A stretch of DNA of 64,000 nt from an uncultured Erysipelotrichaceae bacterium (lineage in GTDB: Bacteria; Bacillota_I; Bacilli_A; RFN20; CAG-826): assembly GCA_902777015.1 (NCBI GenBank), contig CACYSA010000008.1, positions 1 through 64,000 of the forward strand, given 5' to 3'. Below are positions 10,765 through 22,711 of the stretch, in pieces. The notes beneath the pieces are model-generated. The model saw only the letters and a list, made by a program, of their open reading frames with translations, was not told the origin of the DNA and ran no database searches. Position numbers and translations under genes: made by a program. Position 1 is the stretch's first letter, and each line of letters begins with the position of its first letter.

Positions 10765-11699
10765 CTAATATCCTAATTGAACAAAGGACTGTTGTCTATA
10801 AGTTAATGGAGACAGTCCTTTTGTTTTCTCCATTATTCTTTCATTGTTGTAATATTCAATGTATTTAACCATTGCTTTTTCTAATTCCTCTAACGATTTA
10901 AATTCATATTCATGTCCATAGAACATTTCGTTTTTCATAACTCCAAAGAAATTCTCCATAGGTGAGTTATCTAAGCAGTTTCCTTTCCTGGACATCGATT
11001 GTTTGATACCACGTTTTTCTAATTCTTGATGATAAAACTTCATTTGGTATTGCCACCCTTGATCACTATGGAAAATCAATCCCTCTAAATTGTCATATTT
11101 ATTAAAGGCTTTTCTTAACATATCAATTGTTTGATTGAAGTTAGGATTTCTAGATATATTAAACGCTACGATTTCACGATTATGCATATCTAGAATTGGA
11201 GACAAATACAATTTGCCCGCTGCTATATGGAACTCAGATACATCGGTTGTCCATTTTTGGTTACACGCTGTTGTTGAGAAGTCTCTTTTATAAGTTGTTT
11301 TATGTTTTTCTTCATCGACAACTTTATCGAGAAGAAGATTCTTACAAGTTCCGTTTTGATCACCTTTATGCGAGTTATATTTTCCTCTAGGTGTGATGCC
11401 ATGGATATTAAGCAAACGCATGATTCTTTTAATCTTTTTATGGTTAACTTTATATCCTCGATTAGCTAATTCAAGCAATATTCTTCTATAGCCATATCTT
11501 CCTTTATTTTGATGATATATTTCTTCAATTTGTTTAAAGATTTCTTCATTTTTATCATCTTTATTAACTTTGTTAATCGTGTAAAAGAATGTTGCCTTTT
11601 TAACTCCTGAAACCTTAAGAAGGACGTTTAGTTTATAAAATTGCCTTAATTCAACGATAACCTTTACTTTTTCTTCGGTTGTCGGCCCTTCCTTTTTTG
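10765..11699 (-). CDS. IS3-family transposase OrfB (DDE integrase), produced by -1 frameshift
   Basis: The catalytic half of the transposase. The DDE residues are visible: D in KWTTDVSEF, D in IFHSDQGWQY and E in NSPMENFFG, the usual rve-core layout with an HTH-like N-terminal segment (IEEIYHQNKGRYGYRRI). The frame is open upstream from the first likely initiation codon (a TTG at 11478) to a run of six A residues followed by GG on the minus strand (11690-11698), inside orfA. This is where a -1 ribosomal frameshift would create the OrfAB fusion. The coordinates give the open orfB frame; if only the internal start were used the protein would have 237 residues. Confidence 0.8.
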
Positions 11700-12158
11700 A
11701 ACTAAGGCATTTAGTTTTTTTAGGTATTCATTCTCCGCACGAAGATACTCAAGTTCTTTTTCTAACTCTTCTTTGGTTTTTGGTTCATTAGATGTCTTAG
11801 GTTTCTTCGCCATTTTAGGAGGCCTCCCTCGTCTATCTAATTTTAAACCATCTATGCCAGATTCTTGATATATTTTGTACCATTTAGAAAGAAGGTCTTC
11901 TTGGATGCCGTTTGAAAGAGCAACCGACTGTATTGATTCGCCATTAAGAACACGTTGAATCATATCCATTTTATCTTGCCAAGTTCGTTTAGGTTTCTTG
12001 TGTTCTAAGCCCACTTCTCCCACAGAATCATAAATCCTAACCCAACGTCTAACTTTATCAATAAAAGTTTTGTGTTTACACCCACCAGGGTCATAAATGT
12101 GTTCACCGGTTTTATATTTTCTGATGCATTCTAATTTGAATTCTTTTGTAAATCTCAT
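11664..12158 (-). CDS. IS3-family transposase OrfA (HTH protein)
   Basis: A 164-residue DNA-binding protein with two helix-turn-helix-like blocks (residues about 5-45, FTKEFKLECIRKYKTGEHI; and about 60-105, MIQRVLNGESIQSVALSNG), a basic linker (DRRGRPPK) and a C-terminal leucine-zipper-like helix (KEELEKELEYLRAENEYLKKLNALV). In IS3 elements OrfA recognises the terminal repeats and, when fused to OrfB by frameshifting, forms the active transposase. The end overlaps the orfB frame. Confidence 0.8.
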   Translation of the reverse strand: MRFTKEFKLECIRKYKTGEHIYDPGGCKHKTFIDKVRRWVRIYDSVGEVGLEHKKPKRTWQDKMDMIQRVLNGESIQSVALSNGIQEDLLSKWYKIYQESGIDGLKLDRRGRPPKMAKKPKTSNEPKTKEELEKELEYLRAENEYLKKLNALVQKRKGRQPKKK

Positions 12159-16195: not shown

Positions 16196-16864
16196 TTATC
16201 TCCACTCCCTTATTCTCTTTACGAGATAATCTTTAACCAAATTTATATTTTCACCAGTTAACGCACTGATGTTAATGACTGTAGCGTTTGGATTACGATA
16301 ATGAATCATTTCATTACATTTATCGAAATCAAAATCAAAATATTGTTTTGTATCTATTTTATTAATTAAAACTAAATCACATTTTTGGAATATCAATGGA
16401 TACTTTAACGGTTTATCATCGCCTTCAGGAATAGAAAGGATAACCATATCCATAGTGGCCCCTGTATCAAATTCCGCTGGACAGACTAAATTACCAACGT
16501 TTTCTAGGAAGACTAAATCTAAATCATTAGCCCCTATCTCATCTAATCCAGTTTTAGTCATACCAGCATCTAGATGGCACATACCTGATGTATGTAATTG
16601 GATAGATTTAACTCCTGTTTCTTTAGCGACATTAATCGCGTCTACATCACTATCAATATCCGCTTCCATGACACCAATCTTAAAAGTATCCTTTAAAGCA
16701 TTAATGAGTTTAATTAATGTTGTGGTCTTACCAGCGCCTGGAGAAGACATCACATTAATAAGAAAAGTGCGGTGATCAAAAAGATAATCACGCAATAAAT
16801 CCGCTTCTAAATCGTTATTCGCATAGGCGGAACGATTTACGATAATCGTTTTTATGTCTTCCAT
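16196..16864 (-). CDS. hypB: HypB nickel-insertion GTPase
   Basis: A 222-residue SIMIBI-class GTPase. Walker A is SSPGAGKTT near residue 41, the switch/acidic motif is MEADIDSDVDA near 70, the G-domain metal site is CHLDAGM plus the cysteine in NLVCPAEFDTGA, and NKID near 173 recognises guanine. There is no histidine-rich N-terminus and no CxxGCxC motif. It heads the operon with the oxidoreductase and hypA. The ATG follows GAGGG at 5 bases; a GTG two codons earlier is less likely. It would hydrolyse GTP to load nickel via HypA. Confidence 0.88.
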   Translation of the reverse strand: MEDIKTIIVNRSAYANNDLEADLLRDYLFDHRTFLINVMSSPGAGKTTTLIKLINALKDTFKIGVMEADIDSDVDAINVAKETGVKSIQLHTSGMCHLDAGMTKTGLDEIGANDLDLVFLENVGNLVCPAEFDTGATMDMVILSIPEGDDKPLKYPLIFQKCDLVLINKIDTKQYFDFDFDKCNEMIHYRNPNATVINISALTGENINLVKDYLVKRIREWR

Positions 16865-16892
16865 TGTCACCCTCTATTTTATATGAGAAATC

Positions 16893-16908
16893 ACATTATT
16901 ACTAATGT
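16893..16908. promoter_or_regulatory. palindrome between the divergent hypB genes
   Basis: ACATTA-TTAC-TAATGT is an inverted repeat with 6-bp arms in the 66-base gap between the two divergent hypB genes. Next to it, TG-T-TATTAT (16915-16923) is an extended -10 reading toward the plus-strand gene. The minus side has TATAAA near 16879-16884. A shared operator, for example for a nickel- or redox-responsive regulator, is plausible. Confidence 0.45.
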
Positions 16909-16930
16909 AATTTGTGTTATTATAGTTTTG

Positions 16931-17593
16931 ATGGATTATAAAATTGTTGAAGTAAAAGAGAATCTTTTAATTGAGAATAACCAAAAAGCTCAGGAGTTAA
17001 GAGAACATTTGTCATCTAAAGGCGTTTATTTTATTAATGTCATGGCGTCTCCTGGAAGTGGTAAAACAACTTTATTAGTTAATTTAATAAATAGACTTAA
17101 AAATGATTATTCTATCGGAGTGATGGAAGCGGATATCGATGGGGATGTCGACGCGGATAGGATACATAAACTAACTGGTGTACCTTCTATTCAAGTCCAC
17201 ACTTCAGGAGCGTGTCATTTAACCGCGCAGATGGTTGAAGACGCGATTAATTCTTTTGATATTAAAGGTATTAATTTACTGATATTAGAGAATGTTGGCA
17301 ATCTTGTTTGCCCCGCTGAATTTGATACCGGTGCCCATCTTAATTTAGTTTTATTATCCATACCAGAGGGTGATGATAAGCCACTTAAATATCCTTTGAT
17401 GTTTGAAGTCGCTAATATCGTTGCTATTACAAAGATGGATACTTTACCAGCGTTTAACTTTGACATTAATAAATGCAAAGATAATATTCATTTAAGAAAC
17501 AAAGATATAGATGTCTATCCGATATCAGCATTAAAAGATGAAGGCATGGATGAATTAGCTAAGGCAATCAAAAAAGTCATCTATTATCAATAG
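16931..17593 (+). CDS. second HypB-type GTPase
   Basis: A 220-residue paralogue of the divergent HypB. It has ASPGSGKTTL (Walker A near 38), MEADIDGDVDA, GACHLTAQM with the CH metal ligands, LENVGNLVCPAEFDTGA and TKMD in place of NKID for base recognition. I start at ATG 16931, giving MDYKIVEVKENLL, because an upstream extended -10 sits about 7 bases before it and no ribosome site is present; the transcript would be leaderless. The 16-codon longer frame would begin upstream of that -10. Two HypB-like GTPases with one HypA suggest specialisation for two nickel clients or one GTPase with another metal. Confidence 0.8.
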   Translation: MDYKIVEVKENLLIENNQKAQELREHLSSKGVYFINVMASPGSGKTTLLVNLINRLKNDYSIGVMEADIDGDVDADRIHKLTGVPSIQVHTSGACHLTAQMVEDAINSFDIKGINLLILENVGNLVCPAEFDTGAHLNLVLLSIPEGDDKPLKYPLMFEVANIVAITKMDTLPAFNFDINKCKDNIHLRNKDIDVYPISALKDEGMDELAKAIKKVIYYQ

Positions 17594-17609: not shown

Positions 17610-18968
17610 TCATAAACAAAATGTCATATAAGCAGGAATACAAATAATTCCATCTTCTCTAATAGATAGATTCTTTGGATGAATAATATAAGCTTTATCA
17701 ATTCTATTGCTGAATTTCTCGATAAACTTTTTCATTGATTCTGCTTTATATGATTTAGAGGATTTGACTTCTAAAGGTATTAGCTTTTGAGAAACTTTAT
17801 TTCCAGTTGTTAATAAAAAATCTATTTCTATATCGTTTCTATGTTTTTCTTCATTATATCTTGTATAAAAATATAATTTATAGCCGTTTGAGACAAGCAT
17901 TTGGGCAACTACGTTTTCAAAAAACATTCCTTGATTAATTGATAATTTATCTGACAATAACTCTTTATGATAATTTGTTTGTTTTTCATTGTTCTCATCA
18001 AATGTATGTGTTAAAAGCAATCCTGTGTCGGCCATATAGCACTTTACAAAATTTCTTTTTTCATTCAATGACAAGCCTAAATTGGGATCGGTACATAAGA
18101 AACATTCATTACAAATCATAGAATCACTTAACCAAAAGAAAGTTTCTTCATAATCAATTGAGGTACTATCAGTCGAAACTGAATTAATTCTTACTCTTTT
18201 TTCATGTTGTGATAAAAAAGAAGGAATTTGATCAAAGATTGATAAAACTTTCGATTGATAAGCTCTATCTATCTTATGTATATCATCTCGATATGTTTTT
18301 AATATATCGCGTTTTTCCCTTTCGCATTGAGCAAATTGCTTGCCATTTAACAAAAATTCATCGACAGCTTTAGGCATTCCTCCTACAAGCATATATTGTT
18401 TAAATAGGAACATCGCTTTCTTGTGAATTGAATCGTATAATGGAACTCTTTTTTCGAAGCAATCCTTAATGTACCCAATTAGCATTTCCTCACCTAATGC
18501 CCAAGCAAATTCTTCAAAATCCATAGGATACATAGTTATGCTTTGCTCTTCAGAAGGAATAAGAATGTCTCTGACATTTTCTTTTATAGATATTAAAGAA
18601 CCTGTCTCTATAAAGTCATACCTTCCGTCTTTAACAAGATGTTTAATAGCTTCTCTAGCTCTAGGAAATTTTTGCACTTCATCAAAAATGATTAATGATT
18701 CCCTTGGATATAATGGAGTATCGAACTCTAGTGACAAGACCATAAACAATGAATCTAAATTATCAAGAAGATTATTAAATGCTTCTTTAACAGAATTTGT
18801 AGTTTTAGAAAAATCGATAAGAATATAACTCTTATAATTATTCTTCGCAAATTCTTCTACAACTGTTGATTTTCCAATTCTACGAGCACCTTCAACCAAT
18901 ATCGCTTTTGATCCCTGTGTTTCATTTTTCCACTTTAGTAATTTATCATATATTTTTCTCTTAAACAT
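17610..18968 (-). CDS. AAA_14/DUF4143 ATPase 1, with PD-(D/E)XK-like C-terminus
   Basis: A 452-residue member of the abundant but little-understood AAA_14 plus DUF4143 family. Walker A GARRIGKS lies near residue 25 and Walker B LIIFDEVQKFP near 93. The middle has the family's FEEFAWALG and YMLVGGMPKAV segments. The C-terminus has IEIDFLL...IPLEVKSSKS near 378-400, which has the D...ExK pattern of a restriction-like nuclease fold. Start ATG with AAAGGAG at 8 bases; a longer frame has no site. It is close to ATPase 3 and more distant from ATPase 2. Its promoter is overlaid by 33-bp-spaced repeats, suggesting self-regulation. The biological role is not known to me. Confidence 0.82.
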   Translation of the reverse strand: MFKRKIYDKLLKWKNETQGSKAILVEGARRIGKSTVVEEFAKNNYKSYILIDFSKTTNSVKEAFNNLLDNLDSLFMVLSLEFDTPLYPRESLIIFDEVQKFPRAREAIKHLVKDGRYDFIETGSLISIKENVRDILIPSEEQSITMYPMDFEEFAWALGEEMLIGYIKDCFEKRVPLYDSIHKKAMFLFKQYMLVGGMPKAVDEFLLNGKQFAQCEREKRDILKTYRDDIHKIDRAYQSKVLSIFDQIPSFLSQHEKRVRINSVSTDSTSIDYEETFFWLSDSMICNECFLCTDPNLGLSLNEKRNFVKCYMADTGLLLTHTFDENNEKQTNYHKELLSDKLSINQGMFFENVVAQMLVSNGYKLYFYTRYNEEKHRNDIEIDFLLTTGNKVSQKLIPLEVKSSKSYKAESMKKFIEKFSNRIDKAYIIHPKNLSIREDGIICIPAYMTFCL

Positions 18969-18980
18969 ATTCAAACTCCT

Positions 18981-19055
18981 TTTACGCAATCATATTATGC
19001 TTGAAATATCAAAAAAGCGCAAACATTATAATGATAAAATATCAAAAAAGCGCAA
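18981..19055 (-). promoter_or_regulatory. 33-bp-spaced repeat promoter module of ATPase 1
   Basis: AAATATCAAAAAAGCGCAA (plus-strand form) occurs at 19004-19022 and 19037-19055, 19 of 19 identical and 33 bases apart. A degenerate third copy ends in ACGCAA at 18989, again 33 bases away. On the minus strand the middle copy supplies the -35 TTGCGC, with a 17-base spacer to CATAAT (-10). The upstream copy likewise precedes a TATAAT. The third copy lies between the -10 and the ribosome site. The arrangement is that of repressor sites covering a promoter. Confidence 0.75.
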
Positions 19056-19152
19056 TTAACAATAGATAATAAGGTACGTTCAAGAAAAAAATTCTAAATA
19101 AACACCTCTAATGTTTCGCATTTTTAAACAAGCATATATAATGTTTGTAGGT

Positions 19153-19656
19153 ATGAACACTCCGTTATCCAACAAACAGTTTTTAGATAGATTAAATAAC
19201 GATAAAGAATTAAGGAATAGGAGAGATGAATTAGTGAAGGGACAACATCCTGAAACTTTAGTCATCACTTGTTCTGATTCAAGAGTGGTTCCTGAATTTA
19301 TCTTTAATTGTTCTTTAGGGGATATCTTTGTTATTAGAACCGCGGGTAATGTCATTAACGAAGGTGAATTAGCGACAGTCGAATACGCGATTGAACACTT
19401 AAAAGTTAAACATATCATTGTTTTAGGCCATACCCACTGTGGAGCGGTACACGCTGCAATACATAACGAACAAGGTAGATATTTATACCCAATATTAAAT
19501 AGAATCAAAGCTAATATCGGTAACATATGTGATGAATCAGAAGCTTCTAAAATAAACGCTATTAGGGAAGTTAATTATTTAAAAGAAAAGTTCCCTCAGT
19601 ATGAAGGAACTATTGAATACAAGATATACGATATAGAAACTTCAGAATCACGCTGA
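19153..19656 (+). CDS. beta-class carbonic anhydrase
   Basis: A 167-residue zinc enzyme that interconverts CO2 and bicarbonate. The beta-class motifs are ITCSDSRVVPE (zinc Cys plus the Asp/Arg dyad) near residue 37 and LGHTHCGAV (zinc His and Cys) near 97, with VIRTAGNVI between. The start at MNTPLSNKQF is chosen because TATAAT ends 10 bases upstream; two earlier in-frame ATGs lie before or inside that -10. The transcript would have almost no leader. It is a single gene between AAA_14 ATPase genes on the opposite strand. Confidence 0.88.
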   Translation: MNTPLSNKQFLDRLNNDKELRNRRDELVKGQHPETLVITCSDSRVVPEFIFNCSLGDIFVIRTAGNVINEGELATVEYAIEHLKVKHIIVLGHTHCGAVHAAIHNEQGRYLYPILNRIKANIGNICDESEASKINAIREVNYLKEKFPQYEGTIEYKIYDIETSESR

Positions 19657-19676
19657 ATATATTAGGGCGTTCAAGA

Positions 19677-20954
19677 CTAGATATATTCAATTGGAAGAGA
19701 ATAAAGGTTCTCTCTTAATTTCAATTTGTATTCGCCTGTGCAAATAATAGCTCCCATACCTCTTTTTTTATCAACATCTTTGTCCAAAACAGTAAAAGCA
19801 TCGGCATCACTTGCAGTAGGATTACTTCCTTTTTTTATTTCAACCGGATAAAGAATACCATTTTCTTCGATGATGATATCAATCTCGCTTTCTTCAAATT
19901 CTTCCGTAACGTTTCCGTTTGAGTCTGTTTTCTTTTTCTTAACTTTGTCTTTACCGCGATAATAGTAAATGTATTTGGAATAGTCTTTTCCGATATTGAT
20001 AAATGATTTGATAATTTCGTTAACAACAAAAGTCTCAAACATATGACCCGCAATGGCACCATTTTTCAAAGTATCAGGAGTTAACCAAGAAGTAAGGAAG
20101 CATGCTAGCCCAGTATCCCTAAAATAAATTTTAGGTGATTTTATTGCGCGGTTAAGATGTGAATTGTGATACGGTTGAAGCAAACAAACGATATCTGTTT
20201 TAATCAAAATGCCAATCCATAGTTTGACTGTCTCTGCGCTTATTCCAATGTCATTAGCAATATTTGTGTAATCAAGTATTTGCCCTGTTCTAGCGGCAAC
20301 AGAGACCAAGAATCTATAAAATGTTTGATAGTCTCTTATCTTGGTAATCTTATAAACGTCTCTTTCAATATATGTTCTAACATAATCTTGATAAAACTCT
20401 TCCCAATCTTTTTCTGGATGTTCATATAATTTTGGATAAAAACCTCTATGAATCTTTTTCCATATATCGGTATATTTTTTTAATTCTTTTTCTCTATTTT
20501 TGATATATGCATCAGTCGGTATAAACCTCTCATTAAAATCTATGCTGTTTATTTCTCTCAAAGAAAGACCTGCTAGTTCAACAATTCCAACCATCCCAGA
20601 CAAGGAATCAGATAGCCCTTCCATTAAAGACCACTTCTGAGATCCTGAGAAAAGATAATTACTATAAGATGAGACATTATCCAATATATCTTTAACTGAG
20701 CTCAATAATTTTGGACATTCTTGAACTTCATTGATAAATAAAGGTCTATCAAAACTTTCCATAAAACCCTGTGGATCACTATCAGCAGCGTCAAGAAGAT
20801 TTGGATTTTTTAAATTTATTCTTCTAACGCTAGGGAACAATTCTTTTGTCATTCTGGTTTTCCCAACTTGCCTTGCTCCAGTAACCGCTACACTTTTATA
20901 TGATTGATATTTTTTAATCAACAATGGTTCAATTGCTCTATTTATATAAGACAT
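19677..20954 (-). CDS. AAA_14/DUF4143 ATPase 2
   Basis: A 425-residue ATPase of the AAA_14 plus DUF4143 family but from a different subgroup than its two neighbours. Walker A is GARQVGKT near residue 27, Walker B LFINEVQECP near 73 (Asn replaces the usual first acidic residue), and a sensor-like LFSGSQK near 104. The DUF4143 region contains the ETFVVNEIIKS segment, and the C-terminus has SEIDIII...YPVEIKKGS, the D...ExK pattern of a nuclease-like fold. Upstream lie two similar 13-base repeats at a 21-base interval. The role is unknown. Confidence 0.8.
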   Translation of the reverse strand: MSYINRAIEPLLIKKYQSYKSVAVTGARQVGKTRMTKELFPSVRRINLKNPNLLDAADSDPQGFMESFDRPLFINEVQECPKLLSSVKDILDNVSSYSNYLFSGSQKWSLMEGLSDSLSGMVGIVELAGLSLREINSIDFNERFIPTDAYIKNREKELKKYTDIWKKIHRGFYPKLYEHPEKDWEEFYQDYVRTYIERDVYKITKIRDYQTFYRFLVSVAARTGQILDYTNIANDIGISAETVKLWIGILIKTDIVCLLQPYHNSHLNRAIKSPKIYFRDTGLACFLTSWLTPDTLKNGAIAGHMFETFVVNEIIKSFINIGKDYSKYIYYYRGKDKVKKKKTDSNGNVTEEFEESEIDIIIEENGILYPVEIKKGSNPTASDADAFTVLDKDVDKKRGMGAIICTGEYKLKLRENLYSLPIEYI

Positions 20955-20970
20955 AGTAAACGCCCTTTCT

Positions 20971-21004
20971 GACTTTTTCCAAATTCAATTTGATTTTAGC
21001 CAAA
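20971..21004 (-). promoter_or_regulatory. two direct repeats upstream of ATPase 2
   Basis: GACTTTTTCCAAA (20971) and GATTTTAGCCAAA (20992) match at 10 of 13 positions and start 21 bases (two helical turns) apart, immediately upstream of the ATPase 2 start. They are shorter and more diverged than the repeats of the other two ATPase genes, so the assignment is tentative. Confidence 0.35.
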
Positions 21005-21066
21005 CGCGATAAAAAAGCAACTCTTACTGGTAAAACACTATGATTTTTGTCTTGGTTTATAATATA

Positions 21067-22383
21067 TTATAAAAACATAATTAAATAGATAGGTAAAGTT
21101 ATAAGATTGCTTTCTTTTTTTACTACGTTCTTATTCCCAAAAACAAACCCCAAAGGAATATTGTAATTGCCATCAGGATCCACTAATTTAGGAATTGCTC
21201 TGAAGTTGGTTTGATCGTTGCCTGATTTGATTTCAACTGGTAAAACACGCAAATTATTATAATCGTTGATTAAAAAATCAACCTCTCCAACTTTTTTACT
21301 ATCAAAATAATATAGTTCGTGACCATGAGCAATTAATTCCATTGCTGCTGCGGTTTCGTAAACAGAACCTAAATTTATCCCTTTATTTTTGTTTAACACA
21401 GCATCGATGTTATTTCTATACAAAATATTAGTTAATATGCCTACATCATTATAATAGACCTTCAAGAGATTCTTACTTCTGCTTTCAGTCAATGGAAAAA
21501 CAGGGTTAGATACAGCTCTAGAAGGTAAAGAAATTCCGGAATCAAACAAATAATCAAACTCATCTTCATATTTTTCTAAATTTGAATCATCTTTATCTTC
21601 AATTTTCTTGAATTGAATTCGTTTGACTTTGTTTGCCATATTGGAGGAAAGAAGATTATATATTCTTTTAATTTTTAATTTATGTTCTTTATCATATTTT
21701 GAACAATCGTCATTGTAAAAGCCATAAATTTCACTATGAACTCTTCTCATCTCCGAAACATTTCTGTTATTCACATATTGAATAACCGCATCAGGCAGAC
21801 CGCCACTAAGAAGATAATCTTGAAATAGTCTCAATGTTATTTGGTGAATACTTTCATTAATTGGCTTTAAATTAGAAAAACAATCTTTTAAGTAACTAAT
21901 TACATCTTTTCCGTAATTGTTTGCCCATAAAAATTCCTCAAAATCCATAGGGAACATCCTTTTTTCAGTAATCGATCCCATAGGAATAAACGAATGACGA
22001 AGTGTGATTCCAAGAAGCGATCCACTAACAATGTATCTATATTTGTTTTCTTTATAGAGAGGTTTTAGCATTGTCATTAAATGCGGATAATACTGAATCT
22101 CATCTAAAAAGACGATTGTATCCTCACTGTTGTTAAGCCCGGCAAACATAGATCCGACTAATAAATAAAAATCCTTTGTTGTTTTAATATTCGCAAATCT
22201 TTTTTCGGTTTCAAAATCATCTTTTAAGTCAATTTCAGCATAATGTTTAAAAGATGTTTTAGCTGTTTCTCTAATAATGTAACTTTTTCCAATTTGTCTA
22301 GCTCCATAGACAATAAGGATTTTTGCATTGTCCTTCGCTTCATAATATTTATATAATTCCGATTCTATTTTGCGTTCAAACAT
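21067..22383 (-). CDS. AAA_14/DUF4143 ATPase 3
   Basis: A 438-residue ATPase related to ATPase 1. Walker A is GARQIGKS near residue 28 and Walker B is IVFLDEIQYYP near 91. It shares MDFEEFLWANN, YLKDCF and LFQDYLLSGGLPDAV with ATPase 1. The C-terminus has VGEVDFLI...PVEIKSGND near 366-388, a D...ExK nuclease-like pattern. The start ATG follows AAAGGAG. Its promoter is covered by three copies of its own 33-bp-spaced repeat, different in sequence from that of ATPase 1. Confidence 0.82.
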   Translation of the reverse strand: MFERKIESELYKYYEAKDNAKILIVYGARQIGKSYIIRETAKTSFKHYAEIDLKDDFETEKRFANIKTTKDFYLLVGSMFAGLNNSEDTIVFLDEIQYYPHLMTMLKPLYKENKYRYIVSGSLLGITLRHSFIPMGSITEKRMFPMDFEEFLWANNYGKDVISYLKDCFSNLKPINESIHQITLRLFQDYLLSGGLPDAVIQYVNNRNVSEMRRVHSEIYGFYNDDCSKYDKEHKLKIKRIYNLLSSNMANKVKRIQFKKIEDKDDSNLEKYEDEFDYLFDSGISLPSRAVSNPVFPLTESRSKNLLKVYYNDVGILTNILYRNNIDAVLNKNKGINLGSVYETAAAMELIAHGHELYYFDSKKVGEVDFLINDYNNLRVLPVEIKSGNDQTNFRAIPKLVDPDGNYNIPLGFVFGNKNVVKKESNLITLPIYLIMFL

Positions 22384-22400
22384 AGTTTAGACTCCTTTTA

Positions 22401-22481
22401 TCAGGTTTTTCCAATGTTATTATAGGTAAAATAATCGGTTTTTCCAATATTTTTCTTCTGTGAAATATCGGTTTTTCCAAT
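22401..22481 (-). promoter_or_regulatory. 33-bp-spaced repeat promoter module of ATPase 3
   Basis: The plus-strand unit (A)TCGGTTTTTCCAAT occurs at 22434-22448 and 22467-22481, with a near-identical copy at 22401-22415 (one-base difference). Ends fall at 22415, 22448 and 22481, exactly 33 bases apart. On the minus strand the middle copy gives the -35 TTGGAA, a 17-base spacer and a perfect TATAAT; the first copy lies between the -10 and the AAAGGAG site. This is the same geometry as for ATPase 1. Confidence 0.8.
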
Positions 22482-22528
22482 AATGAAAAGCACAAACCTT
22501 TAAACGACATTGAAATAATCAATATATT

Positions 22529-22575
22529 TGCATGTTTTTCGACATATATTTTTATAGTTTATGCATGTTTTTCGA
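22529..22575 (-). promoter_or_regulatory. orphan 33-bp-spaced repeat module
   Basis: TGCATGTTTTTCGA occurs at 22529-22542 and 22562-22575, identical over 14 bases and 33 bases apart. On the minus strand TTATCG and TATAAA at 16-base spacing could form a promoter with one copy over the -35 and one after the -10. No gene follows directly; the next module belongs to ATPase 3. It may be what is left of a lost ATPase gene. Confidence 0.6.
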
Positions 22576-22586
22576 TAGTTAAATAA

Positions 22587-22711
22587 TTACTTGGTGTATA
22601 TATTCTTAAGGAGATAAGATTTTCCGCATCTACTGATACCAGTAATAACCTTTGGAAACCCGTTATTTTTTGTATTAATAAGTTGATTTAATATTTGACA
22701 CGTTCAATCAT
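22587..22711 (-). pseudogene. 5' fragment of a fourth AAA_14-type ATPase gene
   Basis: On the minus strand a strong AAGGAG site precedes an ATG reading MIERVK; after a one-base shift the frame continues NQLINTKNNGFPKVITG then ISRCGKSYLLKNIY before a stop. This is the typical N-terminus and Walker A of an AAA_14 ATPase (ITGxxRCGKSYLL) of yet another subgroup. Everything after the Walker A is missing. The fragment thus carries both a frameshift and a 3' truncation. Confidence 0.7.

Follow-up and report, generated by a model that had tools for sequence, protein, structure and literature searches.

MalT, an ATP-controlled STAND ATPase, binds repeated sites at promoters, and the iteron-Rep systems of plasmids combine autorepression with private direct repeats, spaced by about 20 bp, next to the gene whose product binds them. 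In an E. coli phage-defence island, the regulator RptR represses its own promoter, where it binds three direct repeats that overlap the -10 (PMC12255303). At the protein level the nearest described system is PDC-S01, in which an ATPase and a domain of the PD-(D/E)XK superfamily are fused and which was found by guilt-by-embedding. PDC-S01 is reported to be the fourth most common prokaryotic defence system, with 29,494 bacterial and 9,986 archaeal detections, and most such systems await validation (PMC12988326).

We analysed a window of 64,000 nucleotides, the whole stretch of DNA considered here, from a contig of an uncultured Erysipelotrichaceae bacterium (GCA_902777015.1, CACYSA010000008.1, positions 1 to 64,000). 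Three proteins encoded in the window carry AAA_14 and DUF4143 domains above the Pfam gathering score (PF13173 and PF13635). All three match PADLOC models of PDC-S01 over nearly their full length, with E-values between 1e-90 and 1e-150 for the best model, and by annotation they are candidate PDC-S01 defence proteins. The coordinates of the three genes and of the elements mapped around them are given in the table.

Table. ATPase genes, operator repeats and promoter elements mapped in the window.
Feature	Position	Strand	Basis
ATPase 1 gene, AAA_14 and DUF4143, subfamily A1 (WK type, 33-bp class)	17610..18968	-	Pfam, PADLOC PDC-S01, subfamily HMM
ATPase 1 remnant third repeat, in phase (CGCAA; TTGCG on the gene strand)	18985..18989	-	sequence
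ATPase 1 possible -10 CATAAT, 17 nt past TTGCGC of the middle repeat	18994..18999	-	read from sequence; weak
ATPase 1 operator repeat, middle copy AAATATCAAAAAAGCGCAA	19004..19022	-	exact 19-nt match
ATPase 1 operator repeat, distal copy AAATATCAAAAAAGCGCAA	19037..19055	-	exact 19-nt match, 33 bp from the middle copy
ATPase 2 gene, AAA_14 and DUF4143, subfamily A5	19677..20954	-	Pfam, subfamily HMM; upstream repeat not significant
ATPase 3 gene, AAA_14 and DUF4143, subfamily A1 (33-bp class)	21067..22383	-	Pfam, PADLOC PDC-S01, subfamily HMM; model pLDDT 92.5
ATPase 3 operator repeat, promoter-proximal copy GGTTTTTCCAAT	22404..22415	-	sequence
ATPase 3 -10 TATAAT	22419..22424	-	promoter analysis
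ATPase 3 operator repeat, middle copy ATCGGTTTTTCCAAT, holding the -35 TTGGAA (22442-22447)	22434..22448	-	sequence
ATPase 3 operator repeat, distal copy ATCGGTTTTTCCAAT	22467..22481	-	sequence
Orphan operator repeat, first copy (TGCATGTTTTTCGA; listed also as TCGAAAAACATGCA)	22529..22542	-	unit and flanks as in L113 and L097 promoters
Orphan operator repeat, second copy, 33 bp off	22562..22575	-	sequence
Remnant of a fourth ATPase, frameshifted, NKLI/A4 type: NNGFPKVITGISRCGKSYLL	22594..22711	-	three-frame translation

The mechanism proposed below would most resemble that of the tandem-operator autoregulators, namely RptR, MalT-type STAND ATPases and iteron-Rep pairs. The window loci share with RptR the pattern of a putative autoregulator acting on three direct repeats at a locus that, in the window, is a candidate defence locus. 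RptR, however, is a small dimer whose 9-bp repeats contain a TAGCTA palindrome and lie within 28 bp, its site is conserved rather than private, and it operates without an ATPase or a nuclease (PMC12255303). The maltose-system structure of MalT (8bob) ranked third in our fold search with a TM-score of 0.28 over the query, the likeness being that of the AAA+/STAND core, but MalT activates other genes and has no nuclease domain. Iteron-Rep pairs belong to plasmids, whereas the window loci come from a chromosomal contig of a MAG, and no Rep protein domain was found in the window ATPases, for which a Pfam search returned just AAA_14, DUF4143 and a sub-threshold AAA_22. We know of none among RptR, MalT-type ATPases and iteron-Rep pairs in which private operators and a spacing specific to the subfamily go together with an ATPase-nuclease. 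The window proteins do match the PDC-S01 models; an operator of this type, autoregulation and subfamily geometry are absent from the accessible parts of the published PDC-S01 descriptions, and the surveys of that system, as far as they are accessible, mention no such operator. In the literature searched, which lay mostly outside subscription journals and preprints and was in part accessible, DUF4143 is named in one paper, within a table of expression changes, and no earlier description of 33-bp repeats with this family was found within the same search.

Direct repeats were scored at any period from 14 to 60 in the 150 nt upstream of each gene and compared with 3,000 dinucleotide shuffles each. 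The scores of ATPase 1 and ATPase 3 were both reached by 0 of 3,000 shuffles. An earlier, sequence-only reading of this DNA had described three repeat copies, exactly 33 bp apart, upstream of each of these two genes. All three are present at this spacing at ATPase 3. At ATPase 1 two exact copies of AAATATCAAAAAAGCGCAA lie 33 bp apart, but the third, described as degenerate, amounts to just CGCAA, though it stands in phase. The same reading had placed the -35 in the middle copy, followed by a 17-nt spacer and the -10. This layout is clear at ATPase 3 (TTGGAA-17-TATAAT, 22447-22419, minus strand), whereas at ATPase 1 it is readable (TTGCGC-17-CATAAT, 19022-18994) with a weak -35, and this promoter was absent from the promoter-scan output. 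Two weaker repeats at 21 bp had also been described upstream of ATPase 2. At 21 bp the score there was 5, and the best over all periods was 6, a value that 2,252 of the 3,000 shuffles reached; we rejected this array. Subfamily HMMs place ATPase 2 in A5 and ATPases 1 and 3 in A1. We detected one further 33-bp pair, TGCATGTTTTTCGA, which that reading did not contain and whose score was reached by 1 of 3,000 shuffles. Within this genome the ATPase 3 unit is restricted to the promoter of its own gene, and the remaining loose matches occur at the level of a reversed-pattern control.

The repeats were then placed in a survey of 495 unique AAA_14/DUF4143 genes from bacteria and archaea, sorted by subfamily HMM and drawn from the window's genome, 40 relatives, and genome and viral contig collections, with additional genomes and phyla. 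The surveyed loci were picked by similarity and hence are not independent, and start codons were set by rule. The window's genome contains nine copies of the family, and up to 31 per genome occur among the 40 relatives. Periodic repeats were found upstream of these homologues, as had been anticipated from the window. In subfamily A1 (WK type, which includes ATPases 1 and 3), 241 of 246 strong arrays have a period of 32-34 bp. All 36 strong arrays in A2 (GPKWCGKT) have a period of 23, 24 or 46 bp (23 bp or its double), and all 19 in A3 (RPFY) have a period of 39-42 bp. Long inverted repeats are a further feature of A3 promoters and are present in 64% of them, compared with 8.9% of controls and 3.8% of shuffles. 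Within the 495-gene survey, a strong array is missing in approximately 30% of A1 genes, A4 (NKLI) has zero strong direct-repeat arrays, and A5, the subfamily of ATPase 2, has just two, both in genes of divergent type. The number of copies was counted in 249 arrays and is three in 154, two in 62, four in 31 and five in 2. Spacing is kept within a subfamily and differs between subfamilies, in support of the sequence-only reading.

The 33-bp arrays of A1 occur in nine phyla, seven of them bacterial (Bacillota, Mycoplasmatota, Bacteroidota, Spirochaetota, Actinomycetota, Fibrobacterota and Chloroflexota) and two archaeal (Thermoplasmatota and Methanobacteriota). The identical 33-bp layout in bacteria and archaea, despite their differing promoters, suggests that this geometry belongs to the protein. 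Arrays could also arise by chance or by neutral tandem duplication in AT-rich intergenic DNA, and the genomes are indeed AT-rich, with slippage a known source of tandem repeats. Control promoters argue strongly against this. In the first set of genes a strong upstream direct repeat was found in 70 of 139, compared with 5 of 182 control promoters on the same contigs, and in the cross-phylum set in 87 of 116, compared with 0 of 132. The control promoters belong to ORFs clear of ATPase genes and of the 300 nt upstream of these; they replaced an earlier control set that had shown the same periods as the genes, apparently because some of its ORFs overlapped with an ATPase gene or with the region upstream of one. 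Together with the shuffles at ATPases 1 and 3, the fixed period of each subfamily and the conservation of units beside diverged spacers, these counts refute chance or neutral duplication, whose probability we regard as negligible.

Each unit sequence is private to one gene, yet the operators follow the proteins in sequence. Protein identity and operator similarity were correlated among 136 A1-type genes (Mantel test with 999 permutations, r = 0.338, p = 0.001), whereas protein identity and the similarity of the inter-unit spacers were not (Mantel r = -0.026, p = 0.89). Across 249 genes the mean operator similarity rose from a z of 1.2 at less than 25% protein identity to 4.6 at 75-85%, while spacer similarity was flat, at 1.2-1.5, across identity classes. 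For 48% of genes the best-matching operator is owned by one of the five nearest proteins, compared with 2% expected and 12% for spacers. The co-variation of repeat and protein proposed by the sequence-only reading is thus found in the operators and not in the spacers. Across 58 orthologue pairs, all copies had changed in concert at 67 positions, and a further 218 differences were partial. For example, one orthologue (L139) has AAAACCC in all three copies where the window version has AAAAACC, and two archaeal genes whose proteins are 83% identical carry three copies of TTAAGGAATCAGGAAATT and three copies of TAAGGAAACAGGAA(A/G)AAT, respectively.

Binding of the arrays by the ATPase itself is deduced from sequence, and an unlinked host regulator might bind them instead. 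Paralogues in the same genome, however, do not share operators, and their operators resemble each other no more than those of different genomes do once protein identity is matched. Across phyla, archaea included, it is the protein that the operators follow. Moreover, the units are too different for one regulator, and many would be required. We therefore consider a host regulator very unlikely. A linked partner as the reader of the operators is likewise unsupported, as each neighbouring gene family is present in at most 4 of 80 loci. With neither a host factor nor a linked partner supported, the ATPase is left as the likely reader. That each protein recognises its own operator, as had been proposed, is the best reading of the co-variation, paralogue and neighbour results, and from it we infer autoregulation.

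As in autoregulators with tandem operators, the repeats overlap the gene's own promoter. The median distance from the final repeat copy to the start codon is 37 nt (249 arrays). Bacteroidota promoters have a -7 box, TAnnTTTG, that differs from the sigma-70 -10; it is present in 29 of the 34 Bacteroidota promoters (2.25 expected) and, in 23 of 25 cases, lies 8-12 nt past the GGAA/GAAAA core of the repeat, modulo the repeat period. The box is phase-locked to the array (resultant R = 0.84, 0 of 5,000 permutations), with the same phase whether the last copy is downstream of the box, on the box or one period upstream. This phase is partly a matter of sequence overlap (GTGTA running into TAnnTTTG), yet it is kept where no copy covers the box.

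In type III toxin-antitoxin loci, too, a gene is preceded by tandem repeats of 30-45 nt, and the arrays might accordingly function in RNA, as a leader, an antisense RNA or an antitoxin RNA. Their position is at odds with this. The distal copies precede the promoter, and in some Bacteroidota genes the entire array ends before reaching it. A type III toxin-antitoxin system was rejected, as the repeats are not confined to the interval between promoter and gene and two of the three ATPase 3 copies are at or upstream of the -35; identity with an RNA family was rejected after an Rfam search without a match. We judge a role in RNA to be highly improbable. Given the relation between array and promoter, transcriptional regulation would be the natural function of the arrays. 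Repression seems a likelier sign of this regulation than activation, since the array overlaps or abuts the promoter, although the effect of the bound protein, repression or activation, cannot be told from sequence.

Our preferred explanation, which we consider probable, is that each ATPase binds its own array as an oligomer and regulates, most likely represses, its own promoter, with the repeat spacing set by the oligomer. Each gene would then be a self-contained unit, consisting of one ATPase with a nuclease-like domain and its own operator of two to five, mostly three, direct repeats that overlap or abut the promoter. The shape of the oligomer would determine the spacing, at 33 bp in the WK type and 23 bp in the GPKWCGKT type, while the RPFY type would have either a spacing of approximately 41 bp or inverted sites. 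Protein bound over the -35/-10 (or -33/-7) would regulate its own transcription, most likely by repression and probably in a nucleotide-dependent manner, that is, under the control of ATP, and the nuclease may serve as an effector, for instance in anti-phage defence. Paralogues would have diverged to separate addresses, so that many copies, up to 31 per genome, could share one genome without cross-talk.

For hundreds of members of the family, the gene's own promoter now supplies a DNA sequence to which the encoded protein very probably binds, with a fixed geometry in each subfamily. The arrays offer ready-made binding assays and a natural collection of data on which to base a protein-DNA recognition code. 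They would also provide a handle on the roles of the ATPase and the nuclease, and private operators would give a reason why many paralogues coexist in one genome.

An AlphaFold2 model of ATPase 3, built with 67 sequences (mean pLDDT 92.5), predicts an AAA+/STAND-like ATPase at the N terminus, followed by a helical central part and, at the C terminus, a PD-(D/E)XK-like fold. The Walker A and B motifs are intact, with G27, G32 and K33 invariant and D94 and E95 present in 247-248 of the 249 A1 members. The D...ExK residues of a nuclease-like fold, noted earlier from the window proteins, are a feature of the A1 subfamily, where the putative catalytic residues E343, E367, D/E369, E384 and K386 are 97-99% conserved (249 members). 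In the model they form an E...(E)xD...ExK core in alpha-beta-beta-beta order, with E343 on helix 339-352, E367 and D369 on strand 366-374, and E384 and K386 at the end of strand 379-385. In A3 and A4 members Q often replaces ExK. A sequence search returned no close solved structure, and the fold search returned generic AAA+/STAND matches (ClpA, MalT (8bob), EfAvs5, NLRP9 and Cdc6/Orc1). Their TM-scores over the query are at most 0.34, which indicates that no close relative has been solved, and AAA+ proteins other than STAND ATPases rank equally high.

We searched for the residues behind operator specificity as protein columns that predict the operator once overall identity is removed. Over all pairs, two segments of ATPase 3 in the vicinity of the active site, 355-371 and 384-399, were predictive (r = 0.185, permutation maximum 0.083). 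Segment 355-371 still ranked top with cluster-pair weighting but was among the top ten in just 58% of cluster bootstraps, and no signal was left when the comparison was restricted to 108 pairs that are phylogenetically independent (max-statistic p = 0.51). Because the independent-pair test fails to confirm it, we treat the hairpin beside the active site (355-371) as a lead to the putative reading domain. A more speculative extension, which we think rather unlikely, is a self-addressing ATPase-nuclease, in which the nuclease-like domain would read the promoter repeats via this hairpin and one surface would both silence its own gene and mark a target elsewhere. Were this true, the promoter array would record the target code, and the targets of tens of thousands of PDC-S01 proteins would be predictable from sequence.

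The orphan pair TGCATGTTTTTCGA lies upstream of ATPase 3. Its surroundings are nearly identical to the promoter of a different A1 gene found in two genomes (L113 in G004 and L097 in G019), where three copies are present. The A1 gene that matches this operator is missing in the window; the operator stays and is followed by the ATPase 3 operator and gene. Operator and gene seem to be gained and lost as one unit. Their apparent replacement as a unit, the conservation of the putative catalytic residues in the 33-bp subfamily and the annotation of the family as PDC-S01 are what would be expected if the ATPase bound the arrays mainly in an effector or mobility role, recognising them for cleavage, for homing, for the replacement of genes or for immunity against a relative, with transcriptional control secondary. 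We consider this unlikely: the arrays are located at the gene's own promoter, where they overlap or are in phase with the -35/-10 or -7 boxes, and the ATPase 3 array was not found elsewhere in its genome. Beyond the orphan operator, a fourth ATPase survives as a frameshifted fragment.

Upstream of ATPase 3, the window carries a 33-bp operator without a gene (TCGAAAAACATGCA), and the same promoter was found with its gene still attached at two compared ATPase loci, L113 (genome G004) and L097 (genome G019). A fourth ATPase, of the AAA_14 type, also survives upstream of ATPase 3 as a frameshifted remnant (FPKVITGISRCGKSYLLKNIYT). The carbonic-anhydrase-like gene between ATPase 1 and ATPase 2 is divergent from ATPase 1, and the repeat-bearing intergenic stretch is therefore common to both. 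A head-to-head pair of HypB-like GTPase genes adjoins ATPase 1, and the window also contains IS3-like transposase genes.

Short perfect palindromes (TGTGTAATTACACA, GGTAGAATTCTACC) lie upstream of NKLI-subfamily genes, near the start codon (L037, L110, L049 and L131). They are modestly enriched (29% versus 8.9% in controls) and perhaps represent a third operator type. Long perfect inverted repeats, with arms of up to 20 nt, are frequent upstream of RPFY-subfamily genes (L082, L118, L039 and other loci of this subfamily), either in addition to the 39-42 bp direct repeats or replacing them. At L166 and L212, a gene for a divergent ATP-binding protein (MNNLIETYKLLIDRVNVDFVRYLHDKI) adjoins a WK-type ATPase gene and has a separate 33-bp array of its own (TTGCATACTCTATCGTGCAA). 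The G035 genome has 31 AAA_14/DUF4143 copies, several of which are packed densely within 24 kb, each with a separate operator.

Coordinates of the features described
Feature	Location	Positions	Strand
IS3-like transposase genes	window	10765-12158	
HypB-like GTPase gene pair	window	16196-17593	
Carbonic-anhydrase-like gene	window	19111-19656	
Orphan operator	window	22529-22575	minus
ATPase remnant	window	22594-22711	
Divergent ATP-binding protein	L166	2556-3731	minus
Divergent ATP-binding protein	L212	1757-2932	minus
ATPase gene cluster (L039, L040)	G035 contig C1	214000-238508
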